Of a DNA stretch of 64,000 bases, positions 2,155 to 6,484 are shown in pieces (positions within the stretch are counted from its first letter, which is position 1; each line of letters opens with the position of its first letter). The notes under the pieces were generated by a model. That model saw only the letters and a program-made list of their open reading frames with translations. It did not search any database and was not told the DNA's origin. The position numbers and the translations under genes were made by a program. The stretch is from Natronobacterium texcoconense. GTDB lineage: Archaea; Halobacteriota; Halobacteria; Halobacteriales; Natrialbaceae. Where the stretch lies: NCBI RefSeq assembly GCF_900104065.1, contig NZ_FNLC01000002.1, positions 354,995 through 418,994 of the forward strand, written 5' to 3'.

Positions 2155-4641
2155 TCAGGACACCGACGCCGGCGGCCGTCGTTTCTCGGATTCATCCGTT
2201 GCAGTCGTCGCCTCCTCCTCGAGCGTCTCCTCACCCAGCAACGCGTCGATCACGTCCGTCGCCGCTGGCCCGTACAGCGGTCGATTGTCGTTTCCACAGC
2301 GGTCGTCCATCAGACAGGCGGGACAGCCCTCGTCGCGACCGCAGTCGCAGTCGACGATCAGTTCTCGAGCACGTCGGGCGACCGCCTCGTACTCCTCGTA
2401 GATCCGCCGCGAGAAGCCGACGCCGCCCTCGACGCCGTCGTAGATGAACCACCCGCTCGTATCGGGCGTCTCGGGGAGGCGGTTGGTCGCCAGTCCGCCG
2501 AGATCGTTCGCGTCGACGGTCAACTCGAGCGGCGTGACGCCGATCATGGCGTGTTCGATGGCGTGGATGCCACCGAGGTAGCCGTGCAGTCGCGGCGGCA
2601 GGTCCTCACACTCCTCGTTGTGGTACTCCGAATGGGCCTCCGTTACGGCCCGCTCGACGTCGGTGGGAACCTCCGCCCAGCATAGTTGGGTTCGCATCTC
2701 GAGCGGCCCCAGTCCCGTCTCGAGGCCGATAGCGCGAACGTCGCCGGTGTCGATCTCGCGTCTGGTGTACGTGGGATAGCGGACCGTCACCGTGCCATAG
2801 CCCCAGTTGAGCCGGAAGCCGCTCTCGAGTTCCCGCGACTCGTGAACCTCGGTGTCGTAGATCGCAACCTGGCGCTGTGACTGGGTGTAGTAGTCGACGT
2901 CGACCGGCTCGAGTTTGACGTACGGCTGTGGCCTGTCCTCCCTGAACTCCCGGACCTCGTACTGGTCGCCCTGGTAGAGCACCGTCGCTCCCACGTGGTA
3001 GTCCCGATAGGCCCGTGCCTTCCCGATGGGCTCGTGATCGATCGTCTCGTCGCCGGCCACCCTGACCTCGACGGAGTTCCCGCCGGAGGCGTAGATGTCC
3101 ACCTCGTTCTGCGGACGGTCGCGTCGAGCGTAGGTCACGCCGCCCTCGATCGATCCCTCGAGGTCGCCAGTCCGATGGCCGTACTCGACGGCTCGCTCGA
3201 GTCGCTCCAGGCCGCCGAGGAGGTCGGCGTCGTCGCGGGTGACGGGCAACTCCTGGGCGGCACAGCGGAGGTGCTCGAGGAAAACCGGGTTGTTCGCGAG
3301 GTCGACGACGGCGTCCTCGGGGTCGCCCTCGAGGAGGTACTCCGGGTGGTTGCAGACGTACTGGTCGAGGGTCGCGTGATCCGGGACGAAGACGGAGAGG
3401 GCGTCGCGGCGGCCACGCCCCGAGCGACCGATCCGCTGCCAGAAGGAGCTCCGGGAGCCAGGATACCCCATCAGGACGGTGCCGTCGATACCGCCGACGT
3501 CGATTCCGACCTCGAGGGCGCTGGTGGTCGCGACGCCGTCGAGTTGCCCGGATTTGAGTCGGCGTTCGGTCTCGCGGCGTGATTCCTTGCCGTGGCCGGC
3601 GTTGTACGGCTCGAGATCGACCCCTCCGTGGTAGGGAAGCGTCGGATTCGCCACGTAGTCGGTCGCCCGGTCGACGGCCAGTTCCGTCTGTTTGCGCGAG
3701 TCACAGAACAGCAACGACGGGACGCCGTGATAACAGCAGTGCGCCCACAGCTCCGGTCCCTCGACGGTGGCGGGACGTTTGCTCGGTAGGGCGTCGTCGC
3801 CGTCCTCGTTTCCGTCGCCACTACTCCCGTCGTCGGACGGCGGCTCCCAGAATACGAGGTGTCTGCGGCCGTTCGGCGAGCCGTCCTCGTCGACCACCGT
3901 CGCCGGTTCGCCCGTCAGCGCCTGCGCGTGGTCGCCCGGATTTCCGATGGTCGCACTCGTCAGCACGTACTGAGGGTCGCCGCCGTACCAGTCGATCACG
4001 CGCTGAGCCCTACGGAGAATCCAGGCTGCGTGCATGCCGCTGATCCCCGTCCACGAGTGGGCTTCGTCGACGACGATCAGGTCACAGTTCGCGTGAAAGC
4101 GGGCCCAGCGGTGGTGTCCCTCGAGGTACTGGTTCAACCCCGCGACGTTCGTGATGACGACGTTTGCCTCCTCGCGGATTCGAGACTTGTCCTCCGCGCT
4201 CGTATCGCCGTCGTAGACCCCGACGGTGACGTCAAGCGCCAGTTCGTCGAACAGGTCCTCGAGTTCCCGTTCCTGGTCGCGGCTGAGTGCCTTCGTCGGG
4301 TAGACGATCAGCGCACGCACCTCTGGGTTCTCGAGTGCGCGGCGAGCGATCTCGAGCCCGTAGACGTAGGTCTTCCCGGAGGACGTAGAGGTCGCGACAC
4401 AGACGTTCTCACCGTCGGCGAGCGCCTCGAGCGCCTCGGCCTGGTGGCTCCAGGGGTCGACTGCGAGCCGGGCCGCCAGCTCCGCCGGGAGGACGGTTTC
4501 GGCGGGGACGTGGTTGGCCGACTGCGAAGGAAGCGTGATTCGTTCCTCGAGCTGTCCGCTGTAGCGCTCACGCGGGTAGCTCTCCCGGAGTTCGTCGCCG
4601 GTGAGCGCGAGGTCGTCGGTAGCGTCGTGATCGGTATCCAT
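2155..4641 (-). CDS. MrfA-like DEAH-box helicase with DUF1998 domain
   Basis: An 828-residue superfamily 2 helicase. Walker A is TSTSSGKT (about 84-91), motif II is DEAH (about 190), and the second RecA domain carries the QRIGRSGRGR motif VI. The C-terminal third matches DUF1998 with a four-Cys cluster (CDC...CPAC...C, about 770-790), the zinc-binding layout of Bacillus MrfA (YprA). MrfA is a 3'-5' DNA helicase that repairs mitomycin C lesions with the exonuclease MrfB. The upstream gene, 1 nt away, encodes an MrfB-type nuclease, which strengthens the assignment. An acidic low-complexity loop lies near 275-290. Acting on DNA in the cytoplasm is inferred from the family. Confidence 0.85.
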   Translation of the reverse strand: MDTDHDATDDLALTGDELRESYPRERYSGQLEERITLPSQSANHVPAETVLPAELAARLAVDPWSHQAEALEALADGENVCVATSTSSGKTYVYGLEIARRALENPEVRALIVYPTKALSRDQERELEDLFDELALDVTVGVYDGDTSAEDKSRIREEANVVITNVAGLNQYLEGHHRWARFHANCDLIVVDEAHSWTGISGMHAAWILRRAQRVIDWYGGDPQYVLTSATIGNPGDHAQALTGEPATVVDEDGSPNGRRHLVFWEPPSDDGSSGDGNEDGDDALPSKRPATVEGPELWAHCCYHGVPSLLFCDSRKQTELAVDRATDYVANPTLPYHGGVDLEPYNAGHGKESRRETERRLKSGQLDGVATTSALEVGIDVGGIDGTVLMGYPGSRSSFWQRIGRSGRGRRDALSVFVPDHATLDQYVCNHPEYLLEGDPEDAVVDLANNPVFLEHLRCAAQELPVTRDDADLLGGLERLERAVEYGHRTGDLEGSIEGGVTYARRDRPQNEVDIYASGGNSVEVRVAGDETIDHEPIGKARAYRDYHVGATVLYQGDQYEVREFREDRPQPYVKLEPVDVDYYTQSQRQVAIYDTEVHESRELESGFRLNWGYGTVTVRYPTYTRREIDTGDVRAIGLETGLGPLEMRTQLCWAEVPTDVERAVTEAHSEYHNEECEDLPPRLHGYLGGIHAIEHAMIGVTPLELTVDANDLGGLATNRLPETPDTSGWFIYDGVEGGVGFSRRIYEEYEAVARRARELIVDCDCGRDEGCPACLMDDRCGNDNRPLYGPAATDVIDALLGEETLEEEATTATDESEKRRPPASVS

Positions 4642-4642
4642 G

Positions 4643-6085
4643 CTAGAAGTCGGTCAGGCCGGTCTGGGTGGTTCCGTGGTCGTCTGTCGATTCCGTTCGA
4701 GCGGGCTCCGGATCGGCTTCCTCGATGGCCTCGTGGACGGCGGCCAGTTCGCGAATGTCGGCCTCACAGTAGCGGCGGGCGCGGTTCCAGTCGACGTCCT
4801 CGTCGTCGCTCGAGGACTCGAGCAGCCGCCGAATCCGTTTGCCGAGCGTCCGGCCGTCGATCGGTTCCGCGTCGCGTTCCTCGACGCGGCCGAGTGCCGT
4901 GGCGACGTCCTCGAGGCGGTTCGTTCGACCGGGGAGGACGGCGTTGTCCCGCCGGACGGCCCAGTCGTAGAGGTCGTACTCGAACACGTCCTCGCGCCAG
5001 AACTCGTGGAAGGCGGGCGCGTACTCGGCGACGAACCGCTCGAGGTGCTCGAAGTCGAACTCGTGGCCGTTCCAGGCGACCAGCGCGGGCCGGTCGTATT
5101 CGGCGGCCAGCCAGTCGACGAACTCCCGGGTTGCACGGCCAGGGTCGTCTTTCGACGGGGAGGTGTCGACGAAGTCGACGTACGCATCGCGAGCAGGGTC
5201 GTAGACGCCGATCAACCAGACGACAGTGGGATGCAGACCGTCCGTCTCGATGTCGACGAAAATCGGCGTTCGATCGGCGGGCGGGACGGGGTCCTCGGTC
5301 CGACGGACGACACGCCCGTCCACGAGCGCCCGCGCACTCTCGCGGATCGTCCGCGCCGTCGTGGTCCCAATCCCGCGTACCGACTCGAGGTCGTCGACCG
5401 ACGCCTCGGCGACCGCCGCTCGACGGTCGTATCCCTGCTCTCGGAGTCGATCGGCCGTCGAGGGGCCGACGCCCTCGAGCGCCGTCAACCCGAACCGATC
5501 CGCAGGAACCGACGAGACGGCAACCGAACCGTCCTCTCCGCAGGTGAGACAGGCGAGTTCGGCCGAACCCGCGCGTCGAATCGGCCCGAGACCGCGAACC
5601 GGGAGGCGAACGCGCTCGCCGTCGACGATGGCGGTCCAGACGTGATCGTAGTTCGCCTCGAGCGCGCCGGTGAGAAACGTCGTCTCGGCCGATCGGATTC
5701 GAGCCTGATACCGGCCGATCGCGTCCCGTCCCTCGAGACCGACCTCGAGCGAGATACGATCCGTCTCGACCGTCAGGTCATCACAGACGACGTAGTCCGC
5801 GCCGGCCGGGGCCCGGTCCTCGAGTGCTGTCGTCGCGGTCGCGAAGACGACGGTCTGTCCCGCGACCGTCTCCGTTCGGAGGTCCTCGGCACCAGCGGCG
5901 TGGACGACAGAACCGTCGAACGATCGGCGGAGACGACTCGCGACCCGCGGATCGAAGCCGTCACGGACCACGTAGACGAGGTCAGGTCCGAAGTACGTGA
6001 GGAGGTCCTCGAGCGCCCGGTCGCTTCGCTCGGCCAGCGTCTCACACTGGACGGAAAGCAGGGTTACACCGCTACCGGCCGTCAT
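4643..6085 (-). CDS. MrfB-like RNase H-fold exonuclease with helix-hairpin-helix
   Basis: A 480-residue protein. The C-terminal part (about 285-455) is an RNase H-like DEDD exonuclease of the YprB/MrfB type: FVDIETDG supplies the first Asp/Glu pair, WNGHEFDFEHL the second Asp, and YCEADIRELA the last Asp. Residues about 200-262 hold two helix-hairpin-helix motifs (ALEGVGPSTADRL and SVRGIGTTTARTI), a non-specific DNA-binding module. The N-terminal 190 residues are of unclear fold and include a CLTC pair near 190. In Bacillus, MrfB works with helicase MrfA in excision of mitomycin adducts. Here the helicase gene starts 1 nt after this stop, so the two are surely co-transcribed. Confidence 0.82.
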   Translation of the reverse strand: MTAGSGVTLLSVQCETLAERSDRALEDLLTYFGPDLVYVVRDGFDPRVASRLRRSFDGSVVHAAGAEDLRTETVAGQTVVFATATTALEDRAPAGADYVVCDDLTVETDRISLEVGLEGRDAIGRYQARIRSAETTFLTGALEANYDHVWTAIVDGERVRLPVRGLGPIRRAGSAELACLTCGEDGSVAVSSVPADRFGLTALEGVGPSTADRLREQGYDRRAAVAEASVDDLESVRGIGTTTARTIRESARALVDGRVVRRTEDPVPPADRTPIFVDIETDGLHPTVVWLIGVYDPARDAYVDFVDTSPSKDDPGRATREFVDWLAAEYDRPALVAWNGHEFDFEHLERFVAEYAPAFHEFWREDVFEYDLYDWAVRRDNAVLPGRTNRLEDVATALGRVEERDAEPIDGRTLGKRIRRLLESSSDDEDVDWNRARRYCEADIRELAAVHEAIEEADPEPARTESTDDHGTTQTGLTDF

Positions 6086-6136: not shown

Positions 6137-6484
6137 TCACGCGTCCTCGGCGACGGCCTCGGGTGCGTGATCCTCGATGAAGCTGACGACCGCGTCGCCG
6201 CCGAGGAACCCGTCGGCGACCTCCCCGACCGGTTCGCCATCCCGGAACAGGACGAGCATCGGGACGGACCGGACCTCGAACGCCTCGAGCAGTTCGGGGT
6301 CGTCGCCGGGATTCGCCAGCCCCACGGGGATATCCGTCGACCGGGCGACGTTCCCGAGTACTGGCTCCATCGACTGGCACTTCGGGCAACCGCTCGTGTA
6401 GAGTTCGACGAGCGCCACGTCGTGGTCCGTGACGAACCGCTCGAGGTCCTCGCTGTCCTCGAGTCGGACGGGCTTCGGGCTCAT
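6137..6484 (-). CDS. thioredoxin-fold protein
   Basis: A 115-residue single-domain thioredoxin. The redox site is C33-P-K-C36 in TSGCPKC, and the cis-proline loop is RSVPML near 74. CPKC differs from the classical CGPC, which usually shifts redox potential and specificity, so this may be a specialised reductase or a glutaredoxin-like partner. It is cytoplasmic, with no signal peptide. It is a single gene 51 nt upstream of the start of the MrfB-like gene on the same strand, so it could lead that operon, but no functional link is shown. Confidence 0.85.
   Translation of the reverse strand: MSPKPVRLEDSEDLERFVTDHDVALVELYTSGCPKCQSMEPVLGNVARSTDIPVGLANPGDDPELLEAFEVRSVPMLVLFRDGEPVGEVADGFLGGDAVVSFIEDHAPEAVAEDA

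Follow-up and report, generated by a model that had tools for sequence, protein, structure and literature searches.

The window analysed here, a 64,000-nucleotide stretch of the haloarchaeon Natronobacterium texcoconense (contig NZ_FNLC01000002.1, positions 354,995 to 418,994), carries on its minus strand two adjacent genes that encode a nuclease and a helicase of the YprA/MrfA family. We propose that their products work as a two-subunit helicase/3'-5' exonuclease, tethered to PCNA, in a route of excision repair beside UvrABC. This we hold to be somewhat more likely than not, with function, clamp binding and substrate all predicted. The pair and its recognisable parts are:

2155..4641, minus strand: coding sequence of the YprA/MrfA-family superfamily 2 (SF2) helicase, 828 residues, second gene of the pair (open reading frame, Pfam, Protein Data Bank (PDB) match, tree)
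2311..2559, minus strand: MZB domain of the helicase with a CxC...CxxC cluster (PF09369, 70 bits)
3415..4449, minus strand: RecA1/RecA2 helicase core, residues 65-409, with TSSGKT, DEAH, SAT and GRSGR (Pfam and motifs)
4643..6085, minus strand: coding sequence of the nuclease, 480 residues, first gene of the pair, predicted to comprise a degenerate metallophosphoesterase (MPE) domain, two helix-hairpin-helix (HhH) motifs, a DEDDy exonuclease and a C-terminal PCNA-interacting protein (PIP) motif
4646..4666, minus strand: C-terminal PIP-box-like motif Q474-T-G-L-T-D-F480, following a variable disordered linker (homologue count)
4709..5272, minus strand: DnaQ-like DEDDy 3'-5' exonuclease domain, residues 272-459 (RNase_H_2 and structure match)
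4757..4771, minus strand: tyrosine-type ExoIII motif Y439-C-E-A-D443 (no change at Y439 or D443 in 47 homologues)
5054..5056, minus strand: ExoII aspartate D344 (invariant in 47 homologues)
5246..5254, minus strand: ExoI motif D278-I-E280 (no change at D278 or E280 in 47 homologues)
5318..5491, minus strand: two HhH motifs, residues 199-256, similar to the N-domain of RadA/RAD51 (Pfam HHH_5/HHH; PDB matches RadA/L32e)
5504..6085, minus strand: N-terminal domain, residues 1-194, predicted calcineurin-like MPE fold without catalytic residues

The genes are separated by a single nucleotide (junction ...GACTTCTAG-C-ATGGAT..., that is, stop TAG, C, ATG). An earlier note on this DNA, made from the letters alone, had described an SF2 helicase with DUF1998 and a Cys cluster, akin to YprA/MrfA, lying 1 nt from an RNase H-fold exonuclease; both reading frames and the identity of the helicase are upheld. 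The helicase combines an SF2 core (Walker A, DEAH, motifs III and VI; Pfam DEAD 90 bits, Helicase_C 48 bits) with an above-cut-off match to MZB, the MrfA Zn-binding domain formerly named DUF1998. The Cys cluster of this domain lies at residues 765-776 and is kept in 78 of 80 pair helicases. The nearest known structure is Bacillus subtilis YprA/MrfA (6znp, E 5.7e-105, 356 bits), the next best PDB match having an E-value of 2.9e-19.

Pfam recognises two regions in the nuclease, RNase_H_2 (PF13482) at residues 275-453 (65 bits) and HHH_5 at 200-252; the latter covers two hairpins (GVGPST at 205 and GIGTTT at 238), which are the two HhH motifs already noticed ahead of the nuclease domain. The AlphaFold model, built with 47 homologues, has a pLDDT of 92 and a pTM of 0.88. 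The best structure matches of the modelled exonuclease domain are archaeal family B polymerases, in the region that holds their proofreading exonuclease (against 5mdn residues 163-354: VIA Z 15.6, 170 aligned residues, root-mean-square deviation (rmsd) 3.0). Since D278, E280, D344, Y439 and D443 are invariant in all 47 rows, the nuclease is assigned to the DEDDy type. As judged from alignment and model it has a DnaQ fold and the full DEDDy residue set, and exonuclease activity is predicted. The exonuclease ends near residue 459 and is followed by a disordered tail, with no tetratricopeptide repeat (TPR) domain on the protein. Another PF13482 protein is encoded elsewhere in the same genome (L154, G000:C1:1412161-1412607); its sequence includes an HHH-like stretch (GVGETTERRLWEHG) as well as the DEDDy-type motif YNRAD.

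The tail of the nuclease reads TTQTGLTDF. The pattern Q-x-x-[L/I]-x-[D/E/S]-[F/W] occurs within the last 11 residues in 79 of the 80 homologues; among 2594 other open reading frames from the same loci, only 8 have it (0.3%). The sole homologue without it is that of L095, where the nuclease reading frame is broken beside an intact helicase frame, through either decay or sequencing error. The motif in the window ends with one aromatic residue, not two. Members of the FEN1 and NreA families are PCNA binders in archaea, and those of N. texcoconense itself end in SVTQTGLDRWT (QTGLDRW) and QSNLAAFSESN (QSNLAAF), respectively. A PIP peptide published for A. fulgidus reads KTTQSTLDSFFK (PMC4929162). 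Because the nuclease tail is so widely conserved and resembles those of FEN1 and NreA from its own genome, PCNA binding by this tail is a strong prediction.

The nuclease was found in 110 of 292 Halobacteria genomes, in 118 copies, and every copy is immediately followed, on its own strand, by the matching helicase; among the helicases of this type listed for these genomes, none lacked the nuclease. Pairing is equally complete in a second set of 80 loci from a genome collection, essentially all haloarchaeal (80 of 80). The association is obligate and far beyond chance, and the conservation of the gene pair across Halobacteria, to which the earlier note had pointed as a check, is borne out by the 118 copies. 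In the helicase tree the pair helicases form one clade (100/100), apart from haloarchaeal helicases of the family that have no nuclease partner. On plasmid pHS3 of the genetically tractable archaeon Halobacterium salinarum R1 the two genes (OE_RS12870 and OE_RS12865) overlap by 4 bp. In all, 36 plasmid records carry the pair, and copies up to 99.4% identical were found in different families, which indicates horizontal transfer.

The N-terminal part of the nuclease, residues 1-197, has no detectable Pfam family, in keeping with its earlier description as being of unclear fold. Folded alone by AlphaFold it gives a pLDDT of 93, and the model resembles calcineurin-like metallophosphoesterases, first Rv0805 (VIA Z 11.2, 174 aligned residues, rmsd 3.7), followed by GpdQ, Mre11, SbcD and purple acid phosphatases; all 50 matches listed have the MPE fold. 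Foldseek likewise retrieves MPE proteins and, weakly, the B-subunits of the eukaryotic polymerases alpha, delta and zeta. The metal-binding motifs of such enzymes (DxH, GDxxD, GNH/D, GHxH) are not conserved among 37 homologues (GHxH in none, GN[HD] in one, GD..D in two), nor is there any column with His or Asn conserved at 80% or more. We therefore predict, on the basis of the model, a catalytically dead calcineurin-like phosphoesterase. This fold and the PIP motif were both missed by the earlier note. A RecB/PD-(D/E)XK domain at the N-terminus, prompted by a weak match of the stretch from HHH to exonuclease with TIGR03491, was rejected in view of the predicted MPE fold. The nucleases of COG2251/TM0106 type share RNase_H_2 with the protein described here, but have a PD-(D/E)XK-like domain (PMC3985635), not an MPE fold or a PIP motif.

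The closest known arrangement is that of B. subtilis MrfA/MrfB (YprA/YprB), also a two-gene unit of a YprA-family MZB helicase and a PF13482 protein of the 3'-5' exonuclease type. Helicases that have an MrfB/YprB homologue as partner are already known from a survey of YprA helicases (PMC12458937). The earlier note had likened the haloarchaeal pair to MrfA/MrfB, and searches with both proteins sustain this for the helicase family and the adjacency of the genes, but not for the nuclease as a counterpart of MrfB by descent. The nuclease profile reaches MrfB at an E-value of only 0.061, and with the single sequence MrfB is not listed at E 1 or below (phmmer against PDB). B. subtilis MrfB is a DEDDh enzyme with His258 (PMC11194089); compared with it, the haloarchaeal nuclease is of the DEDDy type, lacks TPRs and adds the HhH pair, the MPE-fold N-terminus and the C-terminal PIP motif.

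Two other groups of nucleases help to place it. The first, from archaea of the same phylum outside Halobacteria, consists of MrfB-like proteins of about 370-390 residues with HHH and RNase_H_2 (profile against MrfB, E 8e-36). They are homologous to the haloarchaeal nuclease (hhalign E 3e-19, 99.2%) and, in at least five loci (L125, L130-L133), stand directly beside a YprA-like helicase, as the haloarchaeal one does, whereas in L126, L127 and L129 no such helicase lies within the fetched region. They differ from the haloarchaeal protein in their shorter N-terminus, the absence of a PIP-like tail and a histidine motif H-N-x-x-D (DEDDh), and the helicases beside them are the most MrfA-like found here (475-511 bits). 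Given these scores and the motif, the pairs of L125 and L130-L133 are probably the better candidates for an archaeal MrfAB. The second group, haloarchaeal proteins of 486 residues (L134-L136), has the same domain order as the nuclease of the window: Pfam Metallophos with intact GDD, GND and GHCH comes first, then an HHH-like region, then the DEDDy exonuclease. Apart from the intact MPE motifs, these MPE-HHH-DEDDy proteins differ in having no PIP-like tail and no YprA-like helicase in the fetched region. Profile alignment with them gives an E-value of 1.7e-22, beginning in the last strands of the MPE domain. Chains in which an intact-looking metallophosphoesterase precedes a C-terminal RNase H-fold region are rare (L134-L136, L158-L163 and the partial L128); the DEDDy exonuclease is clear in L134-L136 and L128, and L128 and L163 carry inserted or extra segments.

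In the exonuclease tree the nucleases of the haloarchaeal pair group with the MPE-HHH-DEDDy proteins (99/98), and MrfB with the MrfB-like archaeal nucleases (97/97). A forced clade of haloarchaeal pair, other archaeal pair and MrfB is rejected (approximately unbiased test, p 0.018). This is suggestive of a haloarchaeal nuclease outside the MrfB lineage, a placement to which the shared tyrosine and domain order lend independent support. With a helicase from the MrfA branch and a nuclease seemingly from another branch than MrfB, haloarchaea would have arrived at an MrfAB-like function by means of another nuclease and a tether to the clamp. We give about an even chance to the view that haloarchaea independently built such a machine from a YprA-family helicase and a nuclease of the MPE-HHH-DEDDy lineage, in which the phosphoesterase decayed to a scaffold and a PCNA tail was added. 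It is quite improbable, by comparison, that the pair is the haloarchaeal orthologue of MrfAB, with both genes the same by descent, a role specific to mitomycin repair and merely lineage-specific ornaments. Gene pairing, helicase family and common membership of PF13482 would fit such orthology, as would the chain of profile matches that leads from the nuclease over the MrfB-like archaeal proteins to MrfB, but it is hard to reconcile with the DEDDy residues, the missing TPRs, the poor direct match, the rejected clade and the different N-terminal architecture.

For the mode of action we propose the following. The HhH motifs and the helicase would bind DNA where a lesion lies, or at a 3' end close to it, the helicase would open the duplex with the 3'-5' polarity of B. 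subtilis MrfA, and the exonuclease would digest the damaged strand in the 3'-5' direction. The PIP tail would keep the pair on PCNA, so that PolB/PolD and ligase, bound to the same clamp, could take over the gap. The MPE domain, predicted to be dead, may act as a structural scaffold, perhaps as an interface with the helicase, comparable to the B-subunits of replicative polymerases. Here we infer complex formation, substrate and order of the steps, and borrow the polarity from MrfA. The genome of N. texcoconense also encodes UvrA and UvrC, and the excision route of the pair would therefore stand beside UvrABC; such a second route is possible. MrfAB of B. subtilis acts without dependence on UvrABC (PMC11194089), and PIP-dependent repair of mitomycin damage is known in haloarchaea through NreA (PMC4929162). 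NreA of Haloferax volcanii resembles the nuclease in being an archaeal repair protein with a C-terminal PIP motif and PCNA-dependent mitomycin repair, but it is unrelated, acts with UvrABC and has no nuclease domain or known helicase partner. By analogy, a link of the pair to mitomycin damage is plausible.

Several observations weigh against our proposal. The module has a patchy distribution, being present in about 38% of the Halobacteria sampled and frequently plasmid-borne, which is not the pattern of a core repair factor, and the PCNA-dependent mitomycin repair known from H. volcanii is due to NreA, not to the pair. PIP motifs are short, and PCNA binding is predicted here from such a motif. 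The exonuclease tree has about 190 columns behind it, its branches are long and its root is not fixed, so that its result is suggestive and of modest strength. Finally, hhalign of the N-terminus alone against the MPE-HHH-DEDDy proteins is not significant (E 0.11), which is why the MPE assignment rests on predicted structure and on the equivalent position in these sister proteins.

Some of the same features would suit a pair that works at PCNA on stalled replication forks or on intermediates of recombination, as a helicase plus an exonuclease that trims 3'-flaps or 3'-ends, rather than one that excises bulky adducts. The PIP motif, the HhH motifs of the Rad51/RadA type and an MPE fold common to Mre11 and polymerase B-subunits speak for it, yet the helicase belongs to the MrfA repair branch and not to Hef, Hel308 or RecQ, and the catalytic residues of Mre11 are absent; we regard it as unlikely. 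Patchiness, carriage on 36 plasmids, copies 99% identical in different families and, on some plasmids, a place beside ThiF/JAB, PLD and second MZB-helicase genes could instead point to an accessory module for defence against viruses or plasmids. This is rather improbable, as the helicase scores far higher with MrfA than with its best PADLOC model (138 bits), and the window copy has ordinary neighbours (thioredoxin and glnA) that are conserved in sister genomes. Moreover, the nuclease matches no PADLOC model, the genome has a separate DruE-like helicase, and no third gene is universal, the largest neighbour cluster being present at 21 of 80 loci. Partner genes of the DISARM, Druantia or ARMADA defence helicases were not found at the window locus.

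If the proposal of a clamp-tethered excision pair is correct, it bears on a system of which the literature we found gives an account for Bacillus alone, without describing how the product is handed over to repair synthesis. The conserved clamp-docking tail predicts that excision and gap filling are coupled on PCNA, an exchange of nuclease partners under one helicase family is suggested, and the inactivated phosphoesterase domain would have a role reminiscent of polymerase B-subunits. In the literature we found, no such pair is described as having a tail that docks on the clamp, a domain of MPE fold or a nuclease of the DEDDy type, and the main text of the YprA survey does not mention PCNA or metallophosphoesterase (PMC12458937).

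The window copy of the pair lies between glnA/thioredoxin and a small open reading frame, a placement kept in the sister genomes of its own subclade; its neighbours comprise thioredoxin, glnA and two small open reading frames without a family match above cut-off. The nearest upstream gene is:

6137..6484, minus strand: thioredoxin-like gene, separated by 51 nt from the nuclease gene downstream of it (at this position in 9 of 80 loci)

It is possibly an operon partner, co-transcribed with the pair in the subclade of the window only. Scans for sigma-70 promoters and terminators in the window gave nothing convincing above shuffled sequences, these models not being applicable to archaeal promoters.

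Some plasmid copies have other surroundings. On H. salinarum pHS3 the next gene after the pair, in the same orientation, encodes a 214-residue RNase_H_2 protein resembling a PolB exonuclease (L145:12942-13586). On a Haloprofundus plasmid (L146:1337-13028) the genes upstream of the pair encode a PLD-like and a ThiF/JAB protein and a second helicase with an MZB domain; this helicase recurs in L051 and L056, and these surroundings are possibly a defence or repair island. A Natronomonas marina plasmid (L152:626-6307) encodes a PCNA homologue (matches to PCNA_N and PCNA_C); a few genes further on, past a transposase among others, comes another YprA-family helicase. Finally, the second MZB protein of the N. 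texcoconense genome itself (L144, G000:C2:645137-645394) resembles DruE, the helicase of Druantia (224 bits, PADLOC).

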